From IMG/VR virus record IMGVR_UViG_3300034198_014967, positions 1-29,512 of that record: DNA of 29,512 bases; one strand, written 5' to 3'. Source of the DNA: a virus. Positions 3,832 to 29,512 of the stretch are shown here, piece after piece; the first letter of the stretch is position 1; each line of letters opens with the position of its first letter. Below the pieces are notes generated by a model. That model did no database searches, was not told the DNA's origin, and was given only the letters and a program-made list of their open reading frames with translations. The position numbers were made by a program, and so were the translations under genes.

Positions 3832-3833
3832 TT

Positions 3834-3837
3834 GGGA
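3834..3837 (+). promoter_or_regulatory. Ribosome binding site deciding the giant gene's start
   Basis: GGGA is followed by six bases and then ATG at 3844. The alternative TTG start at 3832 lies on top of this site and has no site of its own, so ATG 3844 is preferred. The giant protein then begins Met-Ala-Ser-Ile-Lys. Confidence 0.55.
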
Positions 3838-3843
3838 ACAGCA

Positions 3844-15800: not shown

Positions 15801-16737
15801 CTACGACTACAATGACCCTGCATATTTAGACACCAATATACAGAGTTTTTATAATGACTCAGCATTGGGTACTAGACCCGAGGACATCAATGTTGATGGT
15901 GGCAGATACTACGATACCTATAGTAGTCATGCTCCTGAAGAACTAGTACCGGGCATAACATTTGATAGTTTAAACATGGCAGTGTATACACAAATTGGGG
16001 CAGCCAACGTTGGGTATCGTATAGTTCACAACATGAATACCAATGCTGCTAGTACAGATATTAGTTATTGGCCGCAGTACTATGCTATCCGCTCGGTGGA
16101 AACTTCTCCGGTGCTGACGGCAAACTTGAACTTAACCGACACCGATATATATGTAAGTAATGCAGGATTATTACAAACACCAGATGCCGCGTATGCAGTA
16201 CCGGGAGTAATTTACATAAACGGCGAAAAAATTGTATATTACACTGTTGATATTTACAACAATGTATTGGGACAGATACGTCGTGCAGTGGATGGTACCG
16301 GAGCACCTGCCGTGCATCCTGCGGGATCTCTAGTCAGTGATGCATCGGCACACTATCGGTTACCATCGTCTAGCACTGGCAGTGCCAACGTGCATTTGAG
16401 CAGTTGGTTAAACTTGAGCACAAGTTCTTACCCGCAAGAATTTTTAACATTGTCCGCAAATGCCACTGTGTTTGCAGGAAATACTGTTACTCAATTTGCA
16501 ACCGGGGCGTCGGGTATAGTAGCAGCCAACAGTACTGGAACTACAATCGCACTATGGGCGGCCAATATCACTGGAACATTCTCTGCTAATATCTCAGCCA
16601 ACACTTATGTTTATAGAAATGGCTCTAATTTAAGTGCTAAAACCACAGGCATTTCGTACACAGTGGTTGACGGATCTGGGTTGGCGGGTAGTAGTACGAC
16701 TCAAGCGGAGTTTATCAAAAGCCATCAAACCCAATAA
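3844..16737 (+). CDS. Giant multidomain baseplate/tail structural protein (gp7 position)
   Basis: This 4,297-residue protein occupies 44% of the window and directly follows gp6, where T4 carries gp7 (about 1,030 aa). It is almost certainly a virion protein; equating it with gp7 rests on position. Recognisable parts, numbered from the ATG, are: N-terminal conserved region 1-145; cupredoxin-like domain about 150-262, with RGGTYKF then PFWI; beta-rich mixed region to about 2,200; FG-GAP blades about 2,239-2,845 with an EF-hand/dockerin-like loop at 2,313-2,324; a conserved segment with YYFWVKD near 3,013; a helical segment with NYINEVKPYRTSIREYL near 3,410; a pair of GSGYTSTPT-like strands near 3,490-3,556; and four repeats of about 65 residues up to the C-terminus. 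No signal peptide, membrane segment or catalytic motif was seen. Large multidomain tail proteins occur in marine T4-like phages, but this one is unusually long. It may bridge the baseplate and the fibres. Confidence 0.82.
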   Translation: MASIKTANFLPEVFRTDNNRKFLGATLDQLVTPPDLRKVNAYVGRKFAPTYQNSNNYQPESSGLRQNYQLEPSVVVKNKTGTVDFFSSYIDLINQIAYSGGITDDHSRLFATETYSFDGLFDFDKFVNFNQYYWLTNGPATVDVFGAGVDQTQTFTVTRDAGTGSYHFSGSGTAKNPALRLARGGTYKFVVNQPGYPFWIQSSAGTSGLKNNQSNLSSRDILGIENNGTDVGTVTFRVPQATAQDYYVYMKYPNDDIVSGTVDASTELHYSQIQGATLSQLTALGGLDGVRSQLLGKTFIFINQDIDDLYWTAGGLTIPRATRRNVWQIQAVDPLAADPVINLISVTNVLKNQKIYVSSGQNYAEYSFYLDLQFLTYKQIPNITAPLDTIYYQDGASAGYVGQLNLVNINDNTLKVDDDIVGKSDYTSPNGVVFTNGLKIQFDASAVPATYANRTYYVEGVGTAIQLLPETDFVTPEPYAVNGIASPDYITINRASQDLNPWTRSNRWFHIDVIKAAAEYNNDVPVFDQNVRANRPIIEFEADLQLYNFGRVAKTPVDIFDLTTTDARNTVELSTTFQLNGVSLQNGQRVIFANDFDPTVRNQIFIISISEINQTPVVTLSPAEDSVISTFNNLIVLQGNNRGVEYWFDGSDWIVGQQKTGVNQTPMFDVYDNNGISIGDTDLYPLSTFATATNNLGTVVGGTKIFSYRTGTGVNDQILGFPLSYRTFNQVGDIQFNNDFDTDVFSYTLASTATTENIHSLGTLRKNSGLVNGTARNTWTKVVEPSRQYQIISGVYNGVNRYFEIDIRPEARNTIPYFKVFKNFTELTTAQFQVVSAGVKLYVKITDPDLVTDDKIDILIYSKTVSALGHYQVPDNLNFNTENANFASLTLGQLRNHLVTLVSNSNQVTGSAFGDNNLRDRPIKAQGGNILQNAGPVLYSELFLVDPEINFLKGLELARHNYGRIKNKILESAIKLKNINTDDIPGMLDAILLTINGVKNNSFPWYYSDMVPYGPLKNTITYKVIEAEQTDYEITNIFVDTKLSNQSVLVYVNNVQLTKGTDYVFDTTRAGITFKTALAVDDVITINEYSNTDGNYIPDTPTKLGLYPKFTPKIYLDETYVTPINVIQGHDGSVTPAFNDFRDQLLLEFELRIYNNIKIDTTLVSDNIYNTVPGKFRETDYSLAEFTRLLSKSFLQWVGANRVDFTSNTYFVGDDPFTWNFARFVDTVNGEALPGTWRAIYQYFYDTVAPNTAPWEMLGFSEEPEWWETRYGVAPYTGGNLVMWGDLEVGYVWNNGDSYTDTRFARPGLLSIIPVDENGNLRNPAQFLVKSFNSNQANGSYAVGQQGPVETAWRRSSDYPYAVQEAIALAKPGYFFGTLMDVTRYYKNTTLDQYTLSDSLQRITPGAIHINGESSGSGNYRVAGYINWIADYLRSQGIEPVSKITGYLDLVTVQLAYKMAGYSDKSFLQVLAEQASPTSTTNSVVIPAENYTLELYKSTPVKTVTYSAVIVEKSENGYTVSGYDTGNPYFTIIPSLANNNAYPITVLNDTGIVYQDYQKYKITVPYGFEFTNKQQVVDFLISYERYLVGSGFVFADKDPNLETQRDFKLSVQEFLAWSQQGWAVGTVMILSPVLNHLTVNNTQGVIDKIENAPLQSRILDPEFNFIKYNELTVSRTDNVFTLTAISGRTIALAVLDVVEYEHVLIFDNVTVFNDVIYAPKLGNRQYRLKLVGQKTGAWTGALNPPGFVYNSAAVDAWQPGVDYLLGSLVVYKNTYYTNTQNLTATTTFVPAQWKRLAKNQIQTGLLPNFSYNAGKSLRYNNFNDPELQGDFANFVGNEVGFTPRQYLTNFGIDTPTQAKFYQGFIRQKGTLNSVTAFTAAGFNGVSSTVNLYEDWAMRVGEFGALNNNRYVELILSEGVFTGEPAVFNFLNNGATTTDNIVAVYPDDIYRSSKGYSPAIFKDRDNSSFYENDLLTAGYVNVADVDAQIFNIQAYGQLNSQLANVAPGYKIWAARDNITTSWQVYRVNETNVLVNSVFYNVDYTVTVTTTRAHGSVRGDYVVIKGFDGRVDGFYQVSSVVDNYRFNIIIDVNSYPVLKSAGTITGLGVLYRLQSLRIKTATDLNAITPLNQWQDGDKLWVDQDQNTAGWVVYNKSTPWVTSNASVTSNPLSMQLDANSYISNSGFGTVSTINQTGTFAAASMPNLGKGNVIAFVSNISNGYNFTMVANLGAPVANSVSLFGASLDSAGNLLYVGNPGNGSTEYGRTHIHKFDATGTPTVNTTAVITALLQASVDIEPAKTLFKTTTVGGRPLGDINNSGTLSPLDALYYGQWDAGTNTDPGQISWITGTLNPYILANPTNYGAYLNYFFTLSQTLSSPFTGNIGDQFGYSVSASSDSAWLYVGAPGAGNVYVYHANANGYYSYANTITGNSYVTSGNAILARFGLVVNTTSEGDYTAVGAPGETVAGVSSAGAVYTFNRSQESFVATGNTAYYPQYPITASTLLVTVNGNVVTTGYTSNSSAVTFTAAPVVGTTITVDTNKIQLVKKLTETIPGSGNQFGTVVHIAGNDADVYASSPGYNEVGYHSGVVYRFANYGANYGTATGNVYDPVVTVGDNLYINGRLVTFGANATGSLVGNLQSIVANINSANIPGITATAQDYGLLTLTSNVAIPYKKLLITPGTGTALANIGLDVYTNVQSIKHPGAADVNSFGSQLTSSVDSTNLIISASRGQTNTAMTFDQMLTRFDAEATSFSDTQAGSGVVYIYGLVEGSLTSSTLDQYVLVQQLQNNAVSSNDQLGSGLSMNVDTILVGAPGDSNHLTTDSVSQALTSIPNAGTYYTYKNISGNVGWDIISSEQPRVDIDSITRMYIYNNVTDTLLTNFDHIDPVKGKLLGIAEQDLDYITAYDPAVYNAGGGPEAGPLGGASPDFHWGAAQVGKTWWDTSLVRYVDYEQGNLTYRANHWGEMFPGSTVQVCEWVESSVVPDQYTGSGVPLYTEFQSYVEENYVDTATKVVRTRYYFWVKDKTTVETNSTRRNSVKILQEIIANPTAQSVPYAAVLRNDAVALYNIGDYLTGAGNTVVFHADTDALTNTNIIHNEWQLVQEGNSNSLIPDRIVEKMIDSLAGVDRYGNTIPAVNLSPQTRIGLDFTQTVFVDRMLALKNFVEYVNNVMIQHPIVEQRNINNLYSAEAQPDITEYDLAIASRAELDYINTATLLSNYTVLVIADETQNELWTMHTWTGTAWSTVRTQSYYTPFYWSFADWYDSTYNSSDTIKYSANTYADLASLTPTVNDSARVANRGNGEFAVYRYNGTMWDLVGLENGTVQFDSTLYTSAVAGNEIRILFETVRDDIFVDTLIGNFNGLFFYLINYILTEQKSVDWIFKTSFVTVLHQLKKLEQFPAYIQDNQTYYENYINEVKPYRTSIREYLINYQGSDAFSGDITDFDIPATYIANINAYRSPDGSLPSDSYSLTTLPQYSQWNNNHSYSINAVTVSNSGANYYTTPTITVIGGGGTGATVEAVLDVVSNTIARFDVVNAGSGYTSTPTIQINGSGINAAGYPKLVSEQYITSVPLQTITLVGNAVVYVGNIITQPLTGASGVAYTASTGNIITLKDVVGTFVSNQWLFSDSSNLSIRPGVATVSMKLTGNLSAYTGNIITQPASGARAEVYSDSSGKVVSLWNYSGTFIGNAYLYRNGSNLNVRPAYYTVSSVPLAVPYTTFVDQSYNKVRTFTTHVKFDRTSYSSNISAWKPNITVTANSRVSYQGSAYQANSTVYSSATLKLTANVSANVGDYITQSNNSTANARIISIASNSLITVANLSGNFIRRTGNIVINGVTSIAAPISVTNIFDYGKYSLLATANLTNASDRITAAYQPGSGMPSLDLAQLMSGIEYPGVQVQGVKFGATTSNISSNVLYYYSSTSTLYSSNLALIDFTMYGLQPKLPVSVVNNDTGFRSNVTILNITPGSIFLVGSMPDITLGSNVSIVYYDYNDPAYLDTNIQSFYNDSALGTRPEDINVDGGRYYDTYSSHAPEELVPGITFDSLNMAVYTQIGAANVGYRIVHNMNTNAASTDISYWPQYYAIRSVETSPVLTANLNLTDTDIYVSNAGLLQTPDAAYAVPGVIYINGEKIVYYTVDIYNNVLGQIRRAVDGTGAPAVHPAGSLVSDASAHYRLPSSSTGSANVHLSSWLNLSTSSYPQEFLTLSANATVFAGNTVTQFATGASGIVAANSTGTTIALWAANITGTFSANISANTYVYRNGSNLSAKTTGISYTVVDGSGLAGSSTTQAEFIKSHQTQ
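4291..4629 (+). other. Cupredoxin-like beta domain within the giant protein
   Basis: Residues about 150-262 of the giant protein follow a recurrent phage structural pattern: a hydrophobic strand, NPALRLARGGTYKF, then GYPFWIQ, and later a strand pair ending DDIVSGTVD. This resembles cupredoxin-fold domains in marine phage tail proteins, where the strand before PFWI is typical. The usual blue-copper ligand set is not evident, so copper binding is unlikely. The fold assignment is inference from motif shape alone. Confidence 0.45.
10558..12376 (+). other. FG-GAP / integrin-alpha-like propeller segment of the giant protein
   Basis: About six blade-like units occur in residues 2,239-2,845. Each combines an FG- or LG-containing strand with a following (V/A)GxPG or related loop and an aromatic strand. 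They begin near 10558 (FGASLD...VGNPG), 10987 (DQFGYSV...VGAPGAG), 11164 (RFGLVV...AVGAPGE), 11497 (NQFGTVV...SSPGY), 11959 (NSFGSQL...SASRG) and 12223 (DQLGSGL...VGAPGDS). The FG...GAP signature defines the beta-propeller repeats of integrin alpha chains and many bacterial adhesins. Spacing is irregular because extra domains are inserted between blades, the largest between the fourth and fifth. A seventh, diverged blade would be needed for a standard propeller. An adhesive or scaffold role is inferred. Confidence 0.6.
10780..10815 (+). other. EF-hand/dockerin-like calcium loop in the giant protein
   Basis: Residues 2,313-2,324 read DINNSGTLSPLD, a 12-position calcium loop with Asp1, Asn3, Ser5, Thr7, Ser9 and Asp12, followed by a helix (ALYYGQW) as in dockerin type I half-repeats. 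Only one loop is visible, whereas true dockerins have two, so this is best called an isolated dockerin-like EF-hand. It sits between the first and second FG-GAP blades, where calcium could stabilise the structure. Confidence 0.55.
14308..14511 (+). repeat. Paired GSGYTSTPT-type beta repeats in the giant protein
   Basis: Two related units of about 34 residues lie around residues 3,489-3,556. The first has NSGANYYTTPTITV followed by GGGGTGAT, and the second has AGSGYTSTPTIQI. The pattern GsGYtxxPTxxI/V plus a Gly-rich turn is a recurrent beta-repeat in marine phage tail proteins. It probably forms short stacked beta strands. Function unknown. Confidence 0.5.
14566..14766 (+). repeat. C-terminal repeat, copy A (about 67 aa)
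   Basis: First copy of a repeat in the giant protein. Its features are an opening ITLVGN strand, then VGNIITQPLTGASG, a central G-T-F segment, and closing SSNLSIRPG. It abuts copy B with no linker. Confidence 0.65.
14767..14967 (+). repeat. C-terminal repeat, copy B (about 67 aa)
   Basis: Second copy, the same length as copy A. It has KLTGN, TGNIITQPASGAR, SGTFIGNAYLYRNGSNL and RPAYYTVS. The RNGSNL tail matches copy D. Confidence 0.65.
15178..15375 (+). repeat. C-terminal repeat, copy C (diverged)
   Basis: Third copy: LKLTANVSANVGDYITQ, then a variable stretch and LSGNFIRRTGN. It is more diverged than A and B and separated from B by about 70 residues. Confidence 0.5.
16444..16665 (+). repeat. 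C-terminal repeat, copy D (near the C-terminus)
   Basis: Fourth copy: LTLSANATVFAGNTVTQ, FATGASG, NITGTF and YRNGSNLSAK, ending about 24 residues before the stop. The terminal position suggests this repeat type forms an exposed tip or a docking site. Confidence 0.55.
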
Positions 16738-19496: not shown

Positions 19497-21455
19497 ATGA
19501 CCTATTTACCATACGGACTAACTAGAATCAAACAAGGTTCCACATGGAAGCCCTTAAGAAGCCTTTGGTATAAAAACTCTGCGGGCACCTGGACGCCAGT
19601 AAAAACAGCATGGACCAAAAGATCTGATGGAGTATGGGAAAGAATTTATCCTACACCCGCCGGTGTCAACACTGTGACCACTGCTCCTATTGCAGTAGAA
19701 GTATACCAAAATTGGTATCCGGCTGTAAAATTTATAGATTTTGTCAATACCGGCGATAGAGCGTTGACCATTGCCAATGTTGTTGCTTACGACGGTGCAA
19801 AAACCAGCACCACGTTGACCCTATCGGGCATGAACGGTGGTGTACCTTATACCATGGGCGTTGGTGGCACCGGATATCTCGAGGCTAAAATTTATGGTAC
19901 TGTGCTGGGAACCAGCACAGGTAATATCACCTTTGTCAACGATGTTGGGTATTTTGGTTCTGATGGTAATGTTGCTTACTGGCCCGGCAATCGAACTGTG
20001 ATTCCCATTACCACCACAGTATTGCCCGGTTATAGCGATATCACTACTAATCCCGGTGCTGGTAAAGAGTACATCTACTACCAAGGTAAGTCTTACTCGG
20101 GTCTATGGAACATTGAACTCACCAACATCGGTCAAGGTGCCAATCTTGTAGTGTCCAGCGTCACATCTGGCGGCTACATAGGAGTTGATAATTTTGCTGG
20201 TACTATTGGCTTTAATCCCAACAGTGTCAGCGTGCCTATTACCCTTGCCAATTTAAAAGCTGGTACATACCAAGATCAAATTGTTGTCAATAGCAACGCA
20301 CGTGACAAAAATACATACGCTGTTCCGGTTACTCTTACTGTAAGGGCTGCTCACGGTGAGCAGACCTTTCTTGCACCTGGCCTACATTCTTGGACTGTGC
20401 CCGAGGGAGTATTAAGTATCAATGTTTGGGCATTGGGCGGTGGCGGGGGCGGTGGCGGTAATGACGCCTATGCCGGACATGCTGGATATACAGGACATTT
20501 GATCTACGGACCTCTGAATGTGGTACCCGGAGACGTTTTGACATTTTATGTCGGTGGCGGCGGACAAGGCGGATATATGAGCTATAGTTCTCCCGTGGGC
20601 AGTGGGCCCGGGGGACAAGGTGGTAGCACATACGATGGCGGTGGTGGTGGTAATGCTGGGCCAATTGGTAGAAGTGGTGGTGGTGGCGGTGGTGGTGCTG
20701 CCACTGTTATATTAAAAAATGGATCGCTTGTGGCTGTGGCTGCAGGCGGCGGTGGTGGTGGTGGCGGTGGACGGAGCAGTGCCGGAAGAGGCAGATCCGG
20801 ATACAGTTCAAGCGGTAGTACTGCAGGTAGTGCAGGACAAGGCCACCCCTGGGATGGCGGCGGAGGCGGCGGCGGCGGTGGTGGATACTTGGGCGGTTCT
20901 GGTGGTGGATTGCCGGGCGGAGACGAAGGTGCTTATTCCGGCAGCGATGGTGCTGACTTAGTGCCCGGCGGATGGGGTCAATCGGGACAAAGTGGAGACA
21001 GTGGCTGGTATGCCACCGGTAATCAAGCACCGGGTTTTTGGAACAATTTCTTATCAACCTACGGTATATGGATTGGTGGCATCAGTGATGCTACTACATT
21101 GAGTTATAGCACTACTTTAAATTTCCCACAGTCGGGATCTTACACCTTTAATTTATCGATTGACAATCTAGGTGATTTAACAGTGGACGGAGTTTCAATG
21201 GTAACCAGCGGTCTCGATGATAGAGAAGGATGGAGAAGTGTCAGTTCTGAATCAGTTTACATCTCTGCCGGAAGCCATACTGTGACTGTGACTGGTACCA
21301 ATGATGGGGGCCCTGGCGGCATCGCAGCTCAAATCATAAATCCCAACGGTACAGAATTATGGAATACCCTGAGAGCATTAGATACCGGCACCAATTACAA
21401 CGGTGGTGCAACTGCGGCATCAAGTAGCGGTGGTTATATATACTTTTCGTGGTAA
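19497..21455 (+). CDS. Polyglycine receptor-binding adhesin with Ig-like domains
   Basis: This 652-residue protein has an N-terminal segment rich in Trp (YGLTRIKQGSTWKPL, SDGVWERIY) resembling fibre-tip attachment modules. Residues about 60-295 look like two Ig-like beta-sandwich domains; the first contains FVNTGDRALTIANV, which resembles the ASH/Hydin-type pattern. Residues 314-498 are glycine-rich, with several runs of seven or more Gly separated by short loops. This resembles the polyglycine-sandwich specificity domain of T-even adhesins such as the Gp38 type. Residues 509-652 form a PA14/GLEYA-like beta-sandwich (GSYTFNLSIDNLGDLTVDG), a carbohydrate-binding fold in some proteins. Host recognition is inferred. 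It lies between two paralogous fibre genes. No clear Shine-Dalgarno precedes the ATG, four bases after the previous stop, so coupling is likely. Confidence 0.8.
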   Translation: MTYLPYGLTRIKQGSTWKPLRSLWYKNSAGTWTPVKTAWTKRSDGVWERIYPTPAGVNTVTTAPIAVEVYQNWYPAVKFIDFVNTGDRALTIANVVAYDGAKTSTTLTLSGMNGGVPYTMGVGGTGYLEAKIYGTVLGTSTGNITFVNDVGYFGSDGNVAYWPGNRTVIPITTTVLPGYSDITTNPGAGKEYIYYQGKSYSGLWNIELTNIGQGANLVVSSVTSGGYIGVDNFAGTIGFNPNSVSVPITLANLKAGTYQDQIVVNSNARDKNTYAVPVTLTVRAAHGEQTFLAPGLHSWTVPEGVLSINVWALGGGGGGGGNDAYAGHAGYTGHLIYGPLNVVPGDVLTFYVGGGGQGGYMSYSSPVGSGPGGQGGSTYDGGGGGNAGPIGRSGGGGGGGAATVILKNGSLVAVAAGGGGGGGGGRSSAGRGRSGYSSSGSTAGSAGQGHPWDGGGGGGGGGGYLGGSGGGLPGGDEGAYSGSDGADLVPGGWGQSGQSGDSGWYATGNQAPGFWNNFLSTYGIWIGGISDATTLSYSTTLNFPQSGSYTFNLSIDNLGDLTVDGVSMVTSGLDDREGWRSVSSESVYISAGSHTVTVTGTNDGGPGGIAAQIINPNGTELWNTLRALDTGTNYNGGATAASSSGGYIYFSW

Positions 21456-21479: not shown

Positions 21480-22865
21480 ATGGCGTATAGTCTAAAAAAA
21501 ACAAACGGTTCTACTCTACTAAACTTAGCTGATGGTGTAGCCAACGGCCCAGACGTTGATGTCAACACTGCGGTTGCCAGTGTTAATTTAATTGGAAAAA
21601 ACAAATCCAGTTATGGTTTTTATTTAAACGAAAATTTCATAAAACTATTAGAAAATTTTGCCTACAGTATTGCTCCTGTTAGCCCAATCACAGGACAAAT
21701 TTGGTGGGACACCACCAATTCTGTGTTAAAAGTTTACAACGGCACAGCATGGAAAGAAATAGCACATTCGGCCTCGGGCAGTACCAGTCCAAGCAATGCT
21801 ATTTCTGGTGATCTTTGGTGGAATTCCACAGCCAGCACATTGAATGTATACAGTGGAAGCTCTTGGATCACCATTGGTCCAGCTATTCCTCCAGGTGCAG
21901 CTGTGACACAATTCATAAACAATGCTTTGACAGACCCGCTGGCAGCGATACATAATGTGGGCAATGTTGTTGTCAACAACAAACTTGCAGCAGTGGTCAG
22001 CACAGAGTCAACCGCATTCACTGTGTCAACACCAGTATTGGGGCAAACTACAATAGCACCAGGATTTATTATAGATAAAAATCTTGTTGTTGGTGGCAAC
22101 ATTTCCAGCACCGGTATTTCCAGTTTGTCGACTATTAATGCCACCACTGTCAACGCCAGTACCGTAAATGCTGCTACAATTGGTAACTCGGGCGCCACAC
22201 TAACGGGTACAATAAGCACTGCAAGTCAAACCAACATTACATCACTTGGTACATTGTCCGGACTAACCATAGCCGGTGATCTCCGCAGTTACCGTACTCC
22301 TGGAACAACGGGTGTGGTATATTTGTCAAGCAGCAATTCCTACTACTTGTATTGGGATGGCACAAACTACAACATGCCCGGCGGTAATTGGTTACCCAGT
22401 GCTGCTGGCACTTATAATTTGGGTAGTCCCACACAATATTTCAATACACTATACGGTAAATCAACTTCAGCACTATACGCTGACTTGGCAGAAAGATTTG
22501 CAGCAGATCAACCCATGTCGCCTGGTACTGTAGTGGCATTGGGCGGGACCGCGGAAATCACAGTGGAGGATCAAGAATTAAGCGAAACTGTGTTTGGGGT
22601 CATAAGTACTCAAGCAGCTTATTTAATGAATGCCACAGCAGGAACAGACGCGACTCATCCCGCTGTAGCGGTGCAAGGTCGGGTGCCTGTTCAAGTCACA
22701 GGCATAATACACAAGGGTGACAGATTGGTTTCGGCTGGAAATGGTCGAGCACGTGCTGGTGCACGTGATGAAATTACCGCATGGAACGTCATAGGCCGTG
22801 CATTGGTTGACAAACTGGATTTGGGCCCGGGCGTTATTGAAGCTATAGTACAATTAAATTCGTAA
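21480..22865 (+). CDS. Tail fibre protein with C-terminal chaperone/autocleavage-like domain
   Basis: This 461-residue fibre protein opens with the same module as the gene at 17502 (residues 1-140: DGVANGPDV, NLIGKN, NENFIKLLENF, two GxxWWxxT...VYxG units). The middle contains LTGTISTASQTNITSLGTLSGL, a known fibre-shaft repeat type. Residues about 315-332 (YNLGSPTQYFNTLYG) match the lead-in to intramolecular chaperone domains. Residues 333-461 (YADLAERF, GTVVALGG, VFGVISTQAAYLMN, VAVQGRVPVQVTG, KGDRLVSAGNG) resemble a domain in marine T4-like phage fibres related to the Peptidase_G2/IMC autoproteolytic group. I cannot confirm self-cleavage and cannot assign catalytic residues. GGAA seven bases upstream supports the start. 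Fibre role is solid; the C-terminal assignment is moderate. Confidence 0.82.
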   Translation: MAYSLKKTNGSTLLNLADGVANGPDVDVNTAVASVNLIGKNKSSYGFYLNENFIKLLENFAYSIAPVSPITGQIWWDTTNSVLKVYNGTAWKEIAHSASGSTSPSNAISGDLWWNSTASTLNVYSGSSWITIGPAIPPGAAVTQFINNALTDPLAAIHNVGNVVVNNKLAAVVSTESTAFTVSTPVLGQTTIAPGFIIDKNLVVGGNISSTGISSLSTINATTVNASTVNAATIGNSGATLTGTISTASQTNITSLGTLSGLTIAGDLRSYRTPGTTGVVYLSSSNSYYLYWDGTNYNMPGGNWLPSAAGTYNLGSPTQYFNTLYGKSTSALYADLAERFAADQPMSPGTVVALGGTAEITVEDQELSETVFGVISTQAAYLMNATAGTDATHPAVAVQGRVPVQVTGIIHKGDRLVSAGNGRARAGARDEITAWNVIGRALVDKLDLGPGVIEAIVQLNS

Positions 22866-22874: not shown

Positions 22875-23774
22875 ATGACGTATGCATCGGGCGGCTTGAT
22901 TCAAGCCGCAGATTATAATAACTTTATAAATGGCTCAAATCAGTTAAACACTGTTTGGAGCACTGGATCGGGAGCTGTTGGCTATGGTCAAACTGCACTA
23001 TCCACTGTGTCGGCCGGCGGTGTAGTGACAGCTGCTCAGTGGGCTTCCTTGATCAACACATTGAACAATGTTAGAATACATCAAACTGCATCAGGTTCGG
23101 GCATCAGTGCCACAACTGCTGGCTCTCGCATAGACTATTTAAGTACCCTTGCTTCACAAATCAACTCGGCATACTCCAGTGCAGCCTCGTACTATGCACA
23201 AGGAACCACTATAACTGGATCAACATTTAGTCTAGCGGTTTCAAGTACCACAGGTGTTAATACCTATGTGGATCGTACTGTATCTTTTGCTACTACTCAA
23301 GCTGCTAGATATTTTTTCAATGCCGGCGGACAACTGACTCTGGTAGTAGGCACCAACACCAGTAATGGATCGGGCTCCAGTTCAAGTTTGGCAAGATTAA
23401 TCACAGGATTGGGCGGAGTCACAGTGAGAAACACCACCAACACCGGCAGGTCGGGTACAGGTATTACATTAAACACCAATAATACTGCGTTTGGATATAG
23501 AAATATTGTCTACGCAACCAATACCCCTATTATACAGGTAACAGATACAGGCGCGGCCTACACAGCCGATGCTGCGTCAATTGGCTTGTATACCAACAGC
23601 AATGACACTACCTCGGGTGCAAATGGATACCAAGTTAATTTTAGAATTGCCTATTATGTGGCAGACCACACTTGGGACGACACAATAAGTTTGAATCTCA
23701 CCAGTAGAGTGGATATTACTCCTCCAGAATCCACATATTTAACCAATGTGTGGGGCACTCCCACTATAGGCTAA
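22875..23774 (+). CDS. Tail-associated structural protein (299 aa)
   Basis: The 299-residue product has an N-terminal region (residues 1-100) with GLIQAADYNNFINGSNQLN, GSGAVGYGQTALSTV and VTAAQWASLINTLN. This layout recurs in small structural proteins next to fibre genes in marine phages. The rest is Ser/Thr/Gly-rich and beta-prone, with a central FFNAGGQL strand and a long C-terminal beta region. No enzymatic motif or membrane segment is visible. It is the last gene of the structural block and is followed by a weak hairpin and then a host-type promoter, so it probably closes the late transcription unit. A structural role is well supported by context; its exact location in the tail is unknown. 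Confidence 0.75.
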   Translation: MTYASGGLIQAADYNNFINGSNQLNTVWSTGSGAVGYGQTALSTVSAGGVVTAAQWASLINTLNNVRIHQTASGSGISATTAGSRIDYLSTLASQINSAYSSAASYYAQGTTITGSTFSLAVSSTTGVNTYVDRTVSFATTQAARYFFNAGGQLTLVVGTNTSNGSGSSSSLARLITGLGGVTVRNTTNTGRSGTGITLNTNNTAFGYRNIVYATNTPIIQVTDTGAAYTADAASIGLYTNSNDTTSGANGYQVNFRIAYYVADHTWDDTISLNLTSRVDITPPESTYLTNVWGTPTIG

Positions 23775-23783
23775 TCGGATCAA

Positions 23784-23811
23784 CCAAAAGTATTGATTCC
23801 TTTGGCTTTTT
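23784..23811 (+). terminator. Weak hairpin plus T-tract, possible terminator
   Basis: CCAAA (23784-23788) can pair with TTTGG (23801-23805), followed by CTTTTT. The stem is only five base pairs with a 12-base loop, so this is a weak candidate. It overlaps the -35 box of the promoter described next. If real, it would end the structural operon ten bases or so after the stop at 23774. Confidence 0.3.
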
Positions 23812-23821
23812 CTGCTATAAT
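23793..23821 (+). promoter_or_regulatory. Host-type sigma70 promoter with extended -10
   Basis: TTGATT (23793-23798; four of six match TTGACA) is followed by a 17-base spacer, the optimal length, and then TATAAT (23816-23821), a perfect -10. TG at 23813-23814 makes it a perfect extended -10 (TGCTATAAT). This is typical of promoters read by unmodified host RNA polymerase. The expected start, seven bases beyond the -10, is at 23828, exactly the A of the ATG of the next gene. The motif is seen in the sequence; activity and timing are inferred. Confidence 0.72.
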
Positions 23822-23827
23822 TTCACT

Positions 23828-24175
23828 ATGAATGAAATTGAAAAACTCACCAGCGAAGTTCGTCGAGCAACTGACTATCAAATCAATAGGCAAATTTTAC
23901 GTGAAAAGATCTTAACTGATCTGCATGTACCATTCAATGGTGGGCTATTTTTGGTAACACAGGAATTAATTGCTTTTGTGTATGCCTGGCAGGGCACACA
24001 GGACATTTGGCCGTGGGACGGAGGTCAAGACATGTATATTGAAGATGTTTATCACAATCCCATACACATCGCCGATCGTAAAGAATTTTATAAAATTATT
24101 TGCCAACACTATCAACAAGTGATGAACACATGGCACCAACAACATGCACACCTTAAAAAAATACGAAAAATCTAG
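23828..24175 (+). CDS. Small hypothetical protein, first gene of the accessory operon
   Basis: This 115-residue protein is of unknown function. The N-terminus is helical and charged (EKLTSEVRRATDYQINRQ), the centre is Trp-rich (AWQGTQDIWPWDGGQDMYIEDVYHNPIHI), and the C-terminus is helical and His/Lys-rich. No catalytic signature is recognised. I chose ATG 23828 because it coincides with the predicted transcription start of the extended -10 promoter. The in-frame upstream ATG at 23750 lies inside the previous gene and would need a separate transcript. No Shine-Dalgarno exists in the six bases between the -10 and the ATG, consistent with leaderless translation. It overlaps the next gene by 32 bases, so the two are probably co-expressed. 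Confidence 0.7.
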   Translation: MNEIEKLTSEVRRATDYQINRQILREKILTDLHVPFNGGLFLVTQELIAFVYAWQGTQDIWPWDGGQDMYIEDVYHNPIHIADRKEFYKIICQHYQQVMNTWHQQHAHLKKIRKI

Positions 24176-24968
24176 AGGAGTAGTGGTATTTGCATTCAAC
24201 ACTGCTACAGTGGATTATGTTGCCATAGCAGATTGCTCTAGTAGATTAACTACACAGCATTTACAGTTGCCCATTACACTGATCACTGACCACTCTGCTG
24301 ACCCCAAATTTGCATACGATGAAATCATAAGAATTGATGCCATTGCCGGCAATGTTCGCAACGACTTGAACAATCGTTCAGTGGAATGGCGTAATTTTGG
24401 TAGATACCTGGCATACCAACTATCGCCCTATGATGAAACTGTGTTGTTGGATACCGATTATCTAGTGCTGGACCACAGCATATCAAAACTGTGGAGTACA
24501 GAATTTGATTACCAATTGATGCATGTGAATAGAACAGCAAAGGGCATAGACGCCAGCGTCATGGGAGTGAATTCTTTGCCATTTGTTTGGGCCACTGTGG
24601 TGCTATTTAGACGCAGTGAACGTGCTAGACTGTTTTTTGATTTAATCGGACGTGTACAAAGAAACTATTCTTACTACAAACAGTTGTACAGTATACACGA
24701 GACAAGTTATAGAAATGATTATGCTTTTGCCATAGCCAATATAATATTGAACGGGTACACAGTGAATGCATTGCAAGGCATTCCTTGGAGCATGTTCACA
24801 GTGGATGAGAAGATAGAACGGATGACGCTGGCGGATTCGCAAATTAGAATTCACCACCGAGACTACGCAATAGTTGTACCTCGCAGTAATATACATGTCA
24901 TGGATAAAGAATATTTACAAAGCGATGATTTTCAACAACTAGTGGAGACTGTGTGTGAGTCGGCATAA
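24144..24968 (+). CDS. Glycosyltransferase-like protein, DTD type
   Basis: This 274-residue protein looks like a GT-A-fold glycosyltransferase of the GT8-like kind. The hydrophobic strand GVVVFAFNT (residues 12-20) opens the nucleotide-binding half, and ETVLLDTDYLVLD places a DxD metal/nucleotide-sugar motif at D103-T-D105. A later strand (FVWATVVLFRRSERARLFFDLI) resembles the acceptor-side strand usually written as NxGxxxF, followed by a helix. It is paralogous to the next gene; the shared opening is (R/Q)G-hydrophobic-FAxNT. The start overlaps the previous gene by 32 bases. A GAGGAG lies too near an in-frame GTG at 24183, and the paralogue also has about eight residues before the first strand, so ATG 24144 is favoured. 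Donor and acceptor are unknown. Confidence 0.68.
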   Translation: MHTLKKYEKSRGVVVFAFNTATVDYVAIADCSSRLTTQHLQLPITLITDHSADPKFAYDEIIRIDAIAGNVRNDLNNRSVEWRNFGRYLAYQLSPYDETVLLDTDYLVLDHSISKLWSTEFDYQLMHVNRTAKGIDASVMGVNSLPFVWATVVLFRRSERARLFFDLIGRVQRNYSYYKQLYSIHETSYRNDYAFAIANIILNGYTVNALQGIPWSMFTVDEKIERMTLADSQIRIHHRDYAIVVPRSNIHVMDKEYLQSDDFQQLVETVCESA

Positions 24969-25806
24969 AGAACAGCAGGGATTCGTTACCTTTGCACAAA
25001 ATACACAAGATGTAAATTACCTAGAACTGGCCTACCTACAGTGCTTGAATGTCAAGGCCACACAAAAGAACAACAGTTATGCTGTCATAGTGGATGCTAA
25101 AACTCGTGCTCTAGTAGAAGACCGTCACTGCAACACTTTTGATTACATTGTTGAGCTGCCACAGGATTACGATGAGGTCTACGGCAACGGAAAATTTGCC
25201 AATGAGTGCCAAGTGTTTACTCTTACTCCGTTTAAAGAAACTGTCAAGTTGGAAAGCGATCTGTTGTTTACACGAAGCATAGATCACTGGTGGACCGCAT
25301 TTAGATTACGCGATGTTTGTCTCAGCACCGGTGCTAAAAACTATCGCGGCATAATATCTGGTGTAAGAAAATATCGACAGTTGTTTGATGAAAATAATTT
25401 ACCCGATGTGTACAACGGCTTGATGTATTTTAGATATTCAAGACAGGCCGCAGATTTTTTCAACACAGCTCAATTAATTTCACAGCATTGGGAATTTTAT
25501 CAAGAGCAATTGAAGAACTGCAACGATGAAACCCCCAGCACAGATGTGATATACGCCATTGCCGCATTGACAGTGGGCACAGACTCTGTCACCATGCCCA
25601 CCATGGACTTTATAAATTTTGTACACATGAAGTCGGGCTTCAACGGCTGGAGTGACGCACAAAGTTGGTTAGACACAGTGGTGCATGAACGTGACGGAGA
25701 TGTTGTACGTATTAATAATTTGAATCAATATCATCCTGTACACTATCATGACAAAACCTACGCTACTAGAGAGTTAACAGAATATTATGAATCAAGAAGA
25801 ACGTGA
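24955..25806 (+). CDS. Glycosyltransferase-like protein, ESD variant of the DxD motif
   Basis: This 283-residue paralogue of the preceding protein has QGFVTFAQNT at residues 8-17 and TPFKETVKLESDLLF, where the DxD position reads E100-S-D102. DVYNGLMYFRYSRQAADFF matches the NxGxxxF strand plus helix of GT8-like enzymes. The first acidic residue is Glu rather than Asp, so metal binding may be altered or the specificity may differ from the neighbour. It starts with GTG, seven bases after GGAG (24944-24947), overlapping the previous gene by 14 bases. The C-terminus reads TEYYESRRT, and its TEYY codons form part of a sequence repeated at the next gene junction. Family assignment is moderate; catalysis is not proven. 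Confidence 0.63.
   Translation: MSRHKEQQGFVTFAQNTQDVNYLELAYLQCLNVKATQKNNSYAVIVDAKTRALVEDRHCNTFDYIVELPQDYDEVYGNGKFANECQVFTLTPFKETVKLESDLLFTRSIDHWWTAFRLRDVCLSTGAKNYRGIISGVRKYRQLFDENNLPDVYNGLMYFRYSRQAADFFNTAQLISQHWEFYQEQLKNCNDETPSTDVIYAIAALTVGTDSVTMPTMDFINFVHMKSGFNGWSDAQSWLDTVVHERDGDVVRINNLNQYHPVHYHDKTYATRELTEYYESRRT
25776..25790 (+). repeat. Gene-junction repeat, copy 1
   Basis: AACAGAATATTATGA spans the end of the ESD glycosyltransferase gene and the ATG (25787) of the small protein gene. The identical 15 bases occur at 26116-26130, at the equivalent place in the next junction. Both overlaps are 20 bases. Confidence 0.85.
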
Positions 25807-26146
25807 TTTTTGGGCGGAAGTCGAAAGTTTAATCTGCCCTGCTCCTGCGGTTGAAATTGAATATAGATTGCACTACAACGAATCAGGTGAGATCGTCATG
25901 TGCAGCATGGTGGATCATCCCGAAACCTCTGCCCACGTTGTGGTATCAAAAGACGAATACGAACGTTACTTTGATTATTGTGTAGTCAAAGGGCAATTGA
26001 CAAAGATAGACAAAAGTGCCAGCTATAGTGTAAAATTAACTAAATCCACTGCCGGCAGCCGGACAGTGAAAAACCACGCTGGCATTGTTTTAGAGCCGGG
26101 CGAATCCTACACAGAAACAGAATATTATGACCACAGAAATCATTGA
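25787..26146 (+). CDS. Small acidic hypothetical protein
   Basis: This 119-residue protein is of unknown function. It has an acidic helical start, then EYRLHYNESGEIVMCSM, a HVVVSKDEYERYFDYCVVKGQL segment, and a Gly/Thr-rich C-terminus (LEPGESYTETEYYDH). The pattern of a YxxxYxxxG-I strand followed by a VxxxEY...VVxGxL unit resembles small beta-rich proteins found near tail genes in marine phages, so a chaperone or adaptor role is possible but unproven. It overlaps both neighbours by exactly 20 bases and has no strong ribosome binding site, so translation probably depends on the upstream gene. Cys residues near 17, 39 and 64 give no clear metal motif. Confidence 0.68.
   Translation: MNQEERDFWAEVESLICPAPAVEIEYRLHYNESGEIVMCSMVDHPETSAHVVVSKDEYERYFDYCVVKGQLTKIDKSASYSVKLTKSTAGSRTVKNHAGIVLEPGESYTETEYYDHRNH
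26116..26130 (+). repeat. Gene-junction repeat, copy 2
   Basis: Identical to 25776-25790. It spans the TEYY codons of the small protein gene and the ATG (26127) of the next glycosyltransferase-like gene. Confidence 0.85.
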
Positions 26147-27029
26147 TGTTGCAGATTTAGACTGCATTTTTTTAACCTATGATGAGCCCAACCGAGAAAT
26201 CAATTGGATTCGAATCCAAAACATGATACCATGGGCAAAACGAGTGGACGGAGTCAAGGGATCAGATGCAGCACACAAGGCCGCTGCTAGAGCCAGCGAT
26301 ACTGATCGTTTTATATTAATTGACGGCGACAACATTCCCGATCCTGATTTTTTTAATTTACAGTTGGCACTCAACGATGCCAATCGAGACTGTGTATTTA
26401 GATGGCGGGCTAGAAATCACATCAATGGACTCATGTACGGCAACGGTGGCGTCAGCTGTTGGACACAAGAGTTTGTGGAGACTATGTGTACACACGAGGC
26501 CACTGATGGTGCCGCAGAAAATGATGTGGAGTTTTGTTTTTACCCCAATTATTGGGCTATGTCGGACTGCTATTCAACCACTTACCCCAATGCCTCACCA
26601 TTTCAAGCATGGCGAGCTGGATTTCGTGAAGGTGTTAAAATGTGCTTGGATCGTGGTGCCAAACCCAGCTTGCAAGAATTTGAACGCCGGGTACACAATC
26701 GTAACTATGATCATTTGTGCATATGGCAAACGGTAGGCCTTGATGTTGACAACGGTTTTTATAGTATATTGGGTGCTAGAACAGGTACTTACATGACCAT
26801 GCTGACCGATTGGGATTATAAAAAAGTGCAGGATTTTTCTGTATTAGAAAAAATTTGGGAAAACAACAGCAAGGAAGATCAAGATGCTGATCGTTGCAGT
26901 GAACTAGGAGACATACTACGTCGCAAATTGGGATTGCCTATTGTAGACCTGTCGGCAGAGGCCAGCAGATTCTTTAAACATCATTACAAATCGCAGTTTA
27001 AAAATTTGGGACCAATGGTTCGTGAATAA
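26127..27029 (+). CDS. Glycosyltransferase-like protein with DGDN motif
   Basis: The 300-residue protein begins with DCIFLTYDEPNREINW, typical of the first strand and helix of GT-A enzymes acting on nucleotide sugars. RFILIDGDNIPDPDFF places the metal-binding DxD at D66-G-D68, followed by Asn69. RVDGVKGSDAAHKAAA is typical of the acceptor-side helix before it. The C-terminal half is long and helical, with RRVHNRNYDHLCIWQTVG and GFYSILGARTGTYM, segments that fit a family of marine phage glycosyltransferase-like proteins. Its sequence differs from the GT8-like pair upstream, so it is a separate type. The gene starts in the junction repeat, overlapping the previous gene by 20 bases. Donor and acceptor are unknown. 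Confidence 0.68.
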   Translation: MTTEIIDVADLDCIFLTYDEPNREINWIRIQNMIPWAKRVDGVKGSDAAHKAAARASDTDRFILIDGDNIPDPDFFNLQLALNDANRDCVFRWRARNHINGLMYGNGGVSCWTQEFVETMCTHEATDGAAENDVEFCFYPNYWAMSDCYSTTYPNASPFQAWRAGFREGVKMCLDRGAKPSLQEFERRVHNRNYDHLCIWQTVGLDVDNGFYSILGARTGTYMTMLTDWDYKKVQDFSVLEKIWENNSKEDQDADRCSELGDILRRKLGLPIVDLSAEASRFFKHHYKSQFKNLGPMVRE

Positions 27030-27702
27030 ACCTACTGTAATTGCTTTTTATCCTGGAGCCGGGGGTAATCGTTATCTTAGATATCTTACAGGTAAAGAAT
27101 ACCTAACCCCTGATATAACATATGATAATAAGTTCACAGATCAAAAATTTGAATTTAGGTATCTATTAGAAAAAGTAAAAGTAAATCAAGAATTTATACT
27201 AACACATTGTTTAAATTATTCTCACATCAATGAACAGTTAAATCCTAAAAAAGTAATTATGATAAATTCTGATTTTAAAAAAAGTCTAAGAAGAGAGTGG
27301 TGGTTGAATGGTAATAACTTATACAAACAAAAAGTACAATTAGTAAATCAAGATTGTATGTTGACTACTTATAATAATATTAAAGATCCAAATTGGCCTA
27401 ATATTTTGACAGTTGAGGACATGCTTCCTGACCATAAAAAAGAAACAATGGAAAAGATGTCAAAATACAATGTACCAGAAGAATTAAATTCTGCTTGGGC
27501 AACTGTCAGCTGGCATCATGCATACTATGAAAAATATCCAGTTGAGTTGGGATACGCTGAAATTGCCAATGATCAAGAATTTGTAAATTTTATGGAATAT
27601 GAATTAAACAAATATGATAATGAATACTTTAATTTTAGTTGGGATATATTTAATCGGTATGGACCAAACGCAACTATAAACGAGTTATATCTTGACAAAT
27701 AA
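27022..27702 (+). CDS. AT-rich hypothetical protein, possibly P-loop/sulfotransferase-like
   Basis: This 226-residue protein carries AFYPGAGGNRYLRYL at residues 8-22, resembling the phosphate-binding loop of sulfotransferases and related P-loop proteins. It lacks the classical GK(S/T), so the assignment is tentative. The rest is helical, with many aromatic and Lys/Asn residues. The DNA is far more AT-rich than its neighbours: 27121-27180 has 12 G/C in 60 bases, against 32 in 60 at 26401-26460. Codons favour AAT, TTA and AGA, suggesting recent acquisition. It begins with GTG inside the last codons of the previous gene (8-base overlap), with no strong ribosome binding site. It ends 10 bases before the ATG of the radical SAM gene. 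Confidence 0.62.
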   Translation: MNKPTVIAFYPGAGGNRYLRYLTGKEYLTPDITYDNKFTDQKFEFRYLLEKVKVNQEFILTHCLNYSHINEQLNPKKVIMINSDFKKSLRREWWLNGNNLYKQKVQLVNQDCMLTTYNNIKDPNWPNILTVEDMLPDHKKETMEKMSKYNVPEELNSAWATVSWHHAYYEKYPVELGYAEIANDQEFVNFMEYELNKYDNEYFNFSWDIFNRYGPNATINELYLDK

Positions 27703-27712
27703 AAGTGATTTT

Positions 27713-29080
27713 ATGTCTGCTGCGGAGCAGATGCAAGCAAAACTTGGCAACTCACTCTGCTTGGCCAAATGGCAACAGGTGAGTCTACATCTTCCCACCG
27801 GTCTCAACAATTCATGTTACCATCCTCCCTTGCATCCAATAGATGCCTCGGTGTTACAAGATAATCCCAGTGCATTACACAACACCGAGTATAAAAAATC
27901 TCAACGCATCATCATGTTGAAAAATGAAAAACCCAGTGAATGCAGTTATTGTTGGAACATAGAAGCACATGGGCAATTGAGCGATAGACATTATCGTTCC
28001 AGCGAACCCTGGGCCGTAGAACATTACGAAGCAATCAAAAACTCTCGAGGAGACGAAGATGTTGTACCTAGTTATGTGGAAGTTAATTTTAATCATGCCT
28101 GCAACTTGGCTTGTAGTTATTGTAGCCCCCAATTCAGTAGCACCTGGCAAGCTGAGGTTGATCGGTGGGGCGGTTTCCCTACTAGTCGTGTCCATAATGA
28201 TCCTAGCCACTTTGTGGGTCGTAATAGACCTATACCAGCTAGTCAAGATAATCCTTACGTAGATGCATTTTGGCGTTGGTGGCCAGAACTGTATCCCAAA
28301 CTGCGACACTTTAGAATGACCGGTGGTGAACCACTAATGGATCGGAACACTTATCGAGTGTTTGATTATGTGTTGGCCATGCCAAAACCCGATTTGCATT
28401 TAAATGTCACCAGCAACTTCAGTGTGGAACCGGTGCTGTTTGAACGATATTTGGGCTATGTAAAACAGTTATGTACAACACAGATAGAACATTTCATGCA
28501 GTATGTCAGCTTGGATTCTGGCAACATCAAACATGCAGAATATATCCGACACGGGTTGAATATGAATCGACTACATGAATATGTCAACAGATACTTGACA
28601 GAAGTTCCCTATCGCAACAGTCTAACATTCATCATCACCATGAATAATTTAACTGTGCTGGGTCTACAACGTCAACTGCAATGGATACTGGATTTAAGAA
28701 AACGTCACAGTACCACATACCAACGTGTTTGGTTTGATACTCCCTTGCTACGTACACCCACATGGCAAAGTTTACAAATACTGCCACCGGTGTATGTGGG
28801 TGTGTTAGAACGTGTGGCTGACTGGATGGAACTGCGTTTAGAAACAGCAGAAGATCCATTTCACGGATTCAAAGATTACGAAGTACAACGCCTACGCAGA
28901 GACATAGCATGGATGCAGGAAGGTTGCAAGTTGGACCCCGACTATGTTAAACTGCAACGTGCAGACTTTTATCGTTTCTTCAACGAGCACGACAAAAGAC
29001 GTCAAACAGATTTTTTAACTACTTTTCCCGAAATGCGTGAATTTTGGAAAGAATGCGAATACCATGCCAAAAATACATAA
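27713..29080 (+). CDS. Radical SAM protein with N-terminal twitch/SPASM-like module
   Basis: This 455-residue enzyme belongs to the radical SAM family. The cluster-binding motif CNLACSYC sits at C130, C134 and C137, and MTGGEPL (G204-G205-E206) is the SAM-binding GGE motif. N-terminal to the core, C35 (NNSCYHP) and C77-x2-C80 (ECSYCW) are spaced as in twitch/SPASM domains that hold an auxiliary iron-sulfur cluster. Here the module precedes the core, as in a marine group called twitch domain-containing radical SAM proteins. Substrate unknown; such enzymes often act on peptides, but also on other substrates. ATG 27713 is preferred; an in-frame TTG at 27692 would overlap the upstream gene. The next gene is a paralogue. 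Confidence 0.85.
   Translation: MSAAEQMQAKLGNSLCLAKWQQVSLHLPTGLNNSCYHPPLHPIDASVLQDNPSALHNTEYKKSQRIIMLKNEKPSECSYCWNIEAHGQLSDRHYRSSEPWAVEHYEAIKNSRGDEDVVPSYVEVNFNHACNLACSYCSPQFSSTWQAEVDRWGGFPTSRVHNDPSHFVGRNRPIPASQDNPYVDAFWRWWPELYPKLRHFRMTGGEPLMDRNTYRVFDYVLAMPKPDLHLNVTSNFSVEPVLFERYLGYVKQLCTTQIEHFMQYVSLDSGNIKHAEYIRHGLNMNRLHEYVNRYLTEVPYRNSLTFIITMNNLTVLGLQRQLQWILDLRKRHSTTYQRVWFDTPLLRTPTWQSLQILPPVYVGVLERVADWMELRLETAEDPFHGFKDYEVQRLRRDIAWMQEGCKLDPDYVKLQRADFYRFFNEHDKRRQTDFLTTFPEMREFWKECEYHAKNT
29057..29066 (+). repeat. Related gene-junction motif, copy 3 (diverged)
   Basis: GAATACCATG resembles GAATATTATG within the two 15-base junction repeats. It encodes CEYH near the end of the first radical SAM protein and supplies the ATG of the second, with a 17-base overlap. 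Confidence 0.45.
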
Positions 29081-29512
29081 AGAAACAGATTTAGAATATC
29101 GACGCAGAGTAATTGACATCAAGAGTGAAAGCTTCTGCGGCGCGAAATGGTACAACGCCACTGTATGGCTGGGATCGGGTCAAACCACCAGTTGTCACCA
29201 TCCCTTGCCACATCAAATAGACATCAACGAGATTCGTACAAACCCCAAAGCCATACACAACACACAAAAGAAAAAAATGGAACGCGAACAGATGCAACGC
29301 GGAGAACGGCCCGCCGGTTGCGAGTACTGTTGGAAAATAGAAGACATTGGAAGAGACAACATAAGTGATAGAGTTTACAAAACAGTTATATATTCAGACA
29401 AGGACTTAAGAGATGCATTCGCTCAGCCAGCCAGCACAGATGTGGATTTACAAACGCTTGAAATCGCTTTTGATCGCACATGCAATTTTGGGTGTAGTTA
29501 CTGTAACCCTGC
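29064..29512 (+). CDS. Second radical SAM protein, partial, cut by the window end
   Basis: The gene opens at ATG 29064 and stays open to the last base, giving 149 residues so far. It is a paralogue of the preceding gene: C44 (TTSCHHP) and C86-x2-C89 (GCEYCW) match its twitch-like cysteines with identical 42-residue spacing, and CNFGCSYC (C140, C144, C147) is the radical SAM cluster motif. The conserved SCxHP, HNT, P-x2-CxYCWxIE order is the same in both. The 3' part, including the SAM-binding region, lies outside the window, so completeness cannot be judged. It overlaps the previous gene by 17 bases. Two tandem copies may act on different substrates or as a pair. Confidence 0.82.
   Translation, partial: MPKIHKETDLEYRRRVIDIKSESFCGAKWYNATVWLGSGQTTSCHHPLPHQIDINEIRTNPKAIHNTQKKKMEREQMQRGERPAGCEYCWKIEDIGRDNISDRVYKTVIYSDKDLRDAFAQPASTDVDLQTLEIAFDRTCNFGCSYCNP

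Follow-up and report, generated by a model that had tools for sequence, protein, structure and literature searches.

A conserved phage operon of putative glycosyltransferases and five radical-SAM enzymes behind a tail-fibre gene

Directly behind the fibre genes of an uncultured virus lies an operon that raises a question: do its genes make up one pathway, and what would such a pathway modify? The DNA is positions 1 to 29,512 of IMG/VR record IMGVR_UViG_3300034198_014967; this whole stretch of 29,512 nucleotides is called the window below. A first-pass annotation described eight genes, nearly all of them overlapping, behind one promoter after the fibre genes, and proposed a single pathway acting on a virion protein, a host glycan or a peptide, which is plausible. 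All eight genes (A to F, R1 and R2; Table 1) are indeed present on the + strand behind the promoter TTGATT-17-TATAAT, with successive overlaps of 32, 14, 20, 20, 8, 11 and 44 nt when the start codons of the program-made open reading frame (ORF) table are used. The window holds about half of the operon. It is identical at 29,511 of 29,512 bases to bases 43707-73218 of a longer record, IMGVR_UViG_3300032216_001891 (G001, 154,554 bp), in which the remainder can be read: the whole of R2, then R3, R4, X, R5, Y, S1, S2 and the carbamoyltransferase gene CB. Altogether about fifteen enzyme genes stand behind one tail-fibre gene, u299.

To a large degree the answer to the first question comes from gene order. 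Viral contigs were scanned for relatives, of which there were 183 for R1, 159 for E, 15 for B and 333 for A. From each of the larger sets the best 80 were retrieved, so the loci, obtained via R1, E, B or A, represent the closest relatives only; merging those with identical shared sequence left 114 groups. ORF calling was simple, and the best BLAST hit decided to which R paralogue a gene belongs. The consensus order, u461-u299-A-B-C-D-E-(insertions)-R1-R2-R3-R4-(insertions)-R5-Y-S1-S2-CB, is kept across about 100 dereplicated loci, and the grouping is thus more than chance. Eighty-seven loci have the segment u299-A-B-C-D-E without any deviation, and others deviate slightly from it; all five R genes occur in 61 of the 69 loci that span E to Y, always in the same order. 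Fourteen loci anchored on A have no radical-SAM (radical S-adenosylmethionine) gene; these end, or meet the end of the contig, shortly after the cassette. The core operon genes overlap, with median gaps of -4 to -32. Median identity to the reference is 71% for E, 74% for R1, 75% for R5 and 67% for R2, against 39% for u299 and 46% for B. Because the neighbourhood is real and conserved, it is very likely, as far as sequence can tell, that the operon genes form one pathway.

This conclusion holds for A, B, C, D, E and the radical-SAM genes, whose homologues are not scattered, but not for F. Random cargo in a hypervariable region is ruled out for the core by the kept order, and is accepted for F, X and the other insertions, among which AMP-binding and additional radical-SAM genes are found. 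F is present in the phage of the window and in only two other loci (L032 and L034), and it has no sulfotransferase or other family match in Pfam, PHROGs or NCBIfam.

All five R proteins lie above the curated cut-off of 170 bits for NF033640, the N-terminal-twitch radical-SAM family: R1 scores 289.5, R2 312.9 when whole (L003:11346-12728), R3 401.3, R4 334.1 and R5 282.8. The pair of tandem radical-SAM genes reported from the window is thus real, and it is part of a set of five. For R2, the ATG at 29064 is an alternative start. In each paralogue the cysteines of the CX3CX2C motif (three) and those of the N-terminal auxiliary cluster (four or five) are invariant (70-109 sequences per paralogue); for R1 these are C23, C42, C84, C87, C137, C141 and C144 in 109 sequences. 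With this conservation R1-R5 can all be expected to be active, and we regard them as putatively functional radical-SAM enzymes. Further, each of the 31 related records searched, Vibrio phage K566 included, contains 6-16 NF033640 matches.

Around this set lie putative glycosyltransferases (GTs) and putative tailoring enzymes. The carbamoyltransferase is sure, while the GT assignments are weak. CB is a Nol-like carbamoyltransferase with 126.9 bits to PF02543 (Carbam_trans_N), 164.1 bits to PF16861 (Carbam_trans_C) and 318.6 bits to phrog_1601. For the two proteins that had been called GT8-like, a profile search of C matches glycogenin weakly (E 0.005) with no Pfam match; B is related to C, since the profiles of the two cross-match, but it has no match of its own in Pfam, PHROGs or NCBIfam, and its profile finds nothing significant among PDB sequences. 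E is the most conserved operon member outside the radical-SAM genes. The DGD(N) motif, from which a glycosyltransferase had been proposed, is invariant in E, but the structural model (predicted local distance difference test, pLDDT, 75) has only a weak likeness to GT-A and nucleotidyltransferase folds: the best Foldseek E-value is 7e-3, and VIA gives Z 7.0 with a root-mean-square deviation of 4.5 over 131 residues, GT and nucleotidyltransferase matches being mixed. Profiles of E and of Y, the conserved operon protein after R5, find nothing significant among PDB sequences, and A has no family match in Pfam, PHROGs or NCBIfam. Of the two SGNH-like proteins, S2 stays below the Pfam GDSL cut-off (PF13472, 16.9 bits against 32.9); S1 has no GDSL match and owes its label to an N-terminal GDS motif only.

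What such a pathway would modify is harder to answer, and here the neighbour u299 has to be considered. It is immediately upstream of A in all 76 loci anchored on A, a set that shares contigs with the first locus set. The protein contains 28% Ser+Thr, and Cys is absent. Its AlphaFold model (pLDDT 89) combines a helical N-terminal part with a beta-sandwich; against the PDB the best match (Z 5.8) is not significant, giving no usable match, and against a viral structure library three matches are below 1e-3, of which two are nameless in that library and the third comes from an uncultured Caudovirales phage.

The regulatory signals set the operon apart from the fibre genes. In the window the two promoter elements (TTGATT at 23793-23798 and TATAAT at 23816-23821) are separated by 17 bp and end six bases before the first ATG. 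Between u299 and A, the pattern TTGAC-N15-19-TANNNT is present in 53 of 104 loci (1.4 in shuffles); the remaining gaps that were tested lack it. The motif NATAAATA is instead found upstream of the fibre genes, in 57 of 69 gaps before u461 and 24 of 45 before u663 (3.5 and 3.0 in shuffles), and is near background before A (7 of 104 against 3.6). All these backgrounds are simple mononucleotide shuffles, and NATAAATA was counted where the gap length allows. T4-type late promoters are the basis of the analogy under which NATAAATA, as it stands before u461 and u663 in related loci, is probably the late promoter of this phage clade. By these motifs, the fibre genes look late and the operon looks driven by the host polymerase.

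Relatives of the module are also present on bacterial chromosomes. R1 was used to scan GTDB genomes, and the two loci obtained belong to Bdellovibrionota metagenome-assembled genomes (Bacteriovoracaceae and Oligoflexia); NF033640 is above cut-off in 40 of 144 sampled Bdellovibrionota genomes. In a FastTree phylogeny the sequences of every paralogue, R1 to R5, form a clade (support at least 0.999), and each clade is joined by a separate Bdellovibrionota sister (parent support 0.92-1.0); the bacterial sampling for this tree is Bdellovibrionota only, and closer relatives elsewhere are possible. Counted by hand among the matches listed, 23 of 36 Bdellovibrionota homologues of E have an NF033640 gene no more than 5 kb away, against a rough chance of 3% each. 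In addition, NF033640 is found in all 21 E-bearing genomes compared with 40 of the 144 sampled (p 6e-11, overstated since the genomes are related). Several of these E/radical-SAM clusters hold genes for GT2, sugar nucleotidyltransferases and flavin oxidoreductases, and radical-SAM clusters of the phylum include Asp/Asn hydroxylase-like and PP-loop genes. The chromosomal clusters resemble the phage operon in that each of R1-R5 has its own sister there and relatives of E and Y lie near R1-like genes; they differ in lacking phage structural genes, in gene order, and in that u299-A-B-C occurs in one genome only.

Two bacterial loci are of note. One contig (L249:5060-17512) has u299-A-B-C-(D-like)-E with radical-SAM genes behind it, and trmD-, pheS- and pheT-like genes as neighbours. 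Profile E-values range from 2e-15 for A to 2e-98 for E; the D-like gene has no profile match and is placed by position and a short motif only. This genome is the only one of 369 with C, and the locus could be the remains of a phage or else a fibre-plus-modification module of the chromosome itself. In the other (L238), relatives of R2, R5, R4, R3 and R1 stand together with no GTs or E nearby, between genes that by eye are obgE-like and lgt-like.

Some further observations concern these bacteria. A Bdellovibrionota genome can hold up to 20 NF033640 genes, and about 30 kb of one chromosome (L338 and L339, G321:C1:738001-778000) contain more than 10 twitch radical-SAM genes together with an Asp/Asn hydroxylase-like gene. 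In another genome a relative of Y (L252:4359-5291) lies about 3 kb from relatives of E and about 6 kb from a relative of R1, and because of this proximity Y may belong to the same pathway as the E and R genes. Flagellin was dropped as a bacterial substrate: R1 adjoins flagellin in 2 of 26 genomes and is about 7 kb away in a third, which we judge near chance.

Taken together, we favour a phage-encoded, glycan-type decoration pathway with u299 as the likeliest target, a tentative reading that we put somewhat short of an even chance. Host RNA polymerase would transcribe the operon from its own sigma70-type promoter, separately from the late fibre genes, as the motifs suggest. B, C and E may then transfer sugars, as their weak family and fold similarities would allow, and R1-R5, each with cysteines for an auxiliary iron-sulphur (Fe-S) cluster, could carry out successive radical steps on the product, a role to which the conservation of cysteines and order points. 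The downstream SGNH-like proteins and the carbamoyltransferase might add or trim small groups. The adjacent u299 would be the likeliest final carrier, and the virion would leave with a modified receptor-binding or shielding part. We rank this reading highest because even the chromosomal copy of the module includes u299. It is supported by the invariant u299-A-B-C-D-E segment, the ordered R1-R5 with their invariant cysteines and NF033640 scores, the L249 module, the proximity and co-occurrence of E and NF033640, the GT2, sugar nucleotidyltransferase and flavin oxidoreductase neighbours, the Nol-like carbamoyltransferase, and the radical-SAM genes that surround a Cys-His-Ser-tailed protein in phages Atu_ph07 and Phosso. 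Several points weigh on the other side. Common descent can explain the constant adjacency of u299, only one of 369 bacterial genomes has the module, perhaps as what is left of a phage, and family evidence is weak for B and E. Further, because the chromosomal R1-R5 set of L238 has no GTs or E nearby, these enzymes may act on a non-glycan substrate. Finally, the promoter class separates the operon from late fibre expression, and fits a change to the host at least as well.

In that alternative, which is possible but less probable, the O-chain or capsule of the infected cell is built or altered early, blocking attachment by other phages. Such an envelope change has been proposed for GT clusters in T4-like and jumbo phages, namely in pelagimyophages and cyanophages (PMC7029224, PMC7824862), and we rank it second because of these precedents and the promoter, which is sigma70-type and not late-type. 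The carbamoyltransferase and SGNH-like genes, and the clustering of bacterial E and radical-SAM genes with GT2 genes, would also agree with it. However, the phage operon has no recognised flippase, polymerase or membrane GT, the gene to which it is firmly tied encodes a fibre protein, and for O-chain diversification the core GTs vary unusually little (median identity of E 71%).

The radical-SAM enzymes could also modify a phage protein directly, by peptide cross-links, epimers or the like in the manner of ribosomally synthesized and post-translationally modified peptides, the GT-like proteins being secondary. This we consider unlikely. The argument for it comes from Atu_ph07 and Phosso, which have several radical-SAM genes at the same place, after gp6, the giant virion protein and the fibre genes. 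Between them lies a protein with a CHxSCHASCHxSRSRR tail: gp170 in Atu_ph07 (L207:23119-24009, minus strand) and its Phosso counterpart (L341:5001-5921). The tails end CHSSCHASCHNSRSRR or CHTSCHASCHSSRSRR and are nearly identical, against 38% identity overall, and in these cultured phages such a tail looks like a radical-SAM substrate tail. The neighbouring gp171 of Atu_ph07 is closest to peptide maturases with a C-terminal SPASM (the DynA, PapB and HxsB models), all far below cut-off. The locus is an independent hint that radical-SAM enzymes here can act on a protein of the virion locus, but the enzymes are of the C-terminal SPASM type and not of the NF033640 type, no GT is recognised there, and u299 has neither cysteine nor a Cys-His-Ser tail. 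A precursor peptide gene was not found in the operon either: the core genes overlap, and the gap between R5 and Y, a candidate site that was rejected, has no conserved ORF. Least likely of all is the synthesis of a small metabolite derived from an amino acid or sugar. The Asp/Asn hydroxylase-like and PP-loop genes of the bacterial clusters, the existence of R1-R5 apart from GTs in L238, the AMP-binding and extra radical-SAM genes in the insertion slots, and a carbamoyltransferase-containing metabolite cluster proposed for jumbo cyanophages (PMC7824862) speak for it; no exporter or assembly-line genes are recognised, and the link to the fibre gene is fixed.

In a more specific form of the u299 decoration, five radical-SAM enzymes would act in a set order, as a relay, on this tail-fibre protein as their dedicated substrate, in combination with glycosylation; this would be a natural-product-type chemistry on a virion part, by a module shared with Bdellovibrionota chromosomes. 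We find this form doubtful. Should the operon indeed encode a decoration pathway, chemistry would give phages more diversity in their receptor-binding parts (or in the host envelope) than variation in fibre sequence does, and NF033640, a radical-SAM family for which no assigned substrate was found, would gain a biological setting. Mass spectrometry can test the question, since the gene order is invariant and the cultured cousins Atu_ph07 and Phosso have radical-SAM genes at the corresponding place.

Radical-SAM cassettes near phage fibre genes have been published before. In the host-recognition clusters of the T4-like pelagimyophages, GTs and radical-SAM cassettes are linked to tail-fibre genes (PMC7029224). 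Those clusters are hypervariable and gradually diverging, and a change of the host O-chain is proposed, whereas the operon here has a fixed order and five orthologous radical-SAM genes. T4-like marine phages likewise have many radical-SAM genes, up to 12 in one genome plus Fe-S carrier genes (PMC5332604), but these are treated as Fe-S metabolism with no fibre-linked operon described. Capsule or lipopolysaccharide modification clusters of cyanophages and jumbo phages share GT genes and, in a second cluster type, carbamoyltransferases (PMC7824862), but radical-SAM genes are unmentioned there and genes for nucleoside diphosphate-sugar synthesis are carried. None of the three papers reports a relay of five enzymes in fixed order that is linked to a single fibre gene. 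Searches of the open-access literature for radical SAM together with fibres, glycosylation, a carbamoyltransferase or jumbo phages turned up no account of this operon.

The phages that carry the operon resemble RaK2/Atu_ph07-like large (jumbo) phages and form an uncultured group. By gp6 the closest named phages are Atu_ph07, Salicola SCTP-2, Vibrio 2.275.O, Phosso, and the Erwinia/Serratia BF-type and K64-1-type phages, with 32-34% identity over 95-98%. The order of gp6 wedge, giant virion protein and fibre genes is common to Atu_ph07, as is characteristic of the RaK2/Atu_ph07-like phages. C, E, A and u299 gave no match in searches of GenBank phages; for R1 and R4 the only matches were Vibrio phages K566/K567 and a marine single-cell record (about 25%). 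With no close relative found among GenBank phages, these searches lend no support to the label 'marine'.

Table 1. Features of the window (positions in the 29,512-nt stretch)
Feature	Position	Strand	Evidence
gp6-type baseplate wedge	442-3831		phrog_10646, 959 bits
Giant virion protein	3832-16737		phrog_10938, 1081 bits
u461, fibre/structural protein preceding u299	21480-22865	+	phrog_14394 virion structural protein
u299, fibre-like protein, candidate substrate, directly before A	22875-23774	+	
Sigma70-type operon promoter, TTGATT-17-TATAAT	23793-23821	+	Sequence
A, 115-aa conserved protein	23828-24175	+	Conserved family, 333 viral loci
B, tentative GT8-like glycosyltransferase, paralogue of C	24144-24968	+	Invariant DxD (D103, D105)
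C, tentative GT8-like glycosyltransferase	24955-25806	+	Conserved family, weak glycogenin similarity
D, 119-aa protein	25787-26146	+	Position conserved, sequence conservation weak
E, putative GT-A-type glycosyltransferase	26127-27029	+	DGDN motif, weak GT-A-like model
F, P-loop-like protein, variable cargo outside the conserved core	27022-27702	+	
R1, N-terminal-twitch radical-SAM enzyme	27692-29080	+	NF033640, 289.5 bits
R2, N-terminal-twitch radical-SAM enzyme, cut by the window end	29037-29512	+	NF033640, 108.9 bits (partial)

A few minor observations can be added. In the fibre region, the protein u652 (window 19497-21455) has a long glycine-rich stretch and may resemble polyglycine-type adhesins. 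Downstream of the operon a protein of 1341 residues (L180:5949-9974, corresponding to G001 85949-89974) has no match in Pfam, PHROGs or GenBank phages. Two other phage-encoded proteins of G001 (118032-118916 and 152526-153479) resemble, by eye, TctC-type solute receptors, a possible hint to the host that would fit Burkholderiales.

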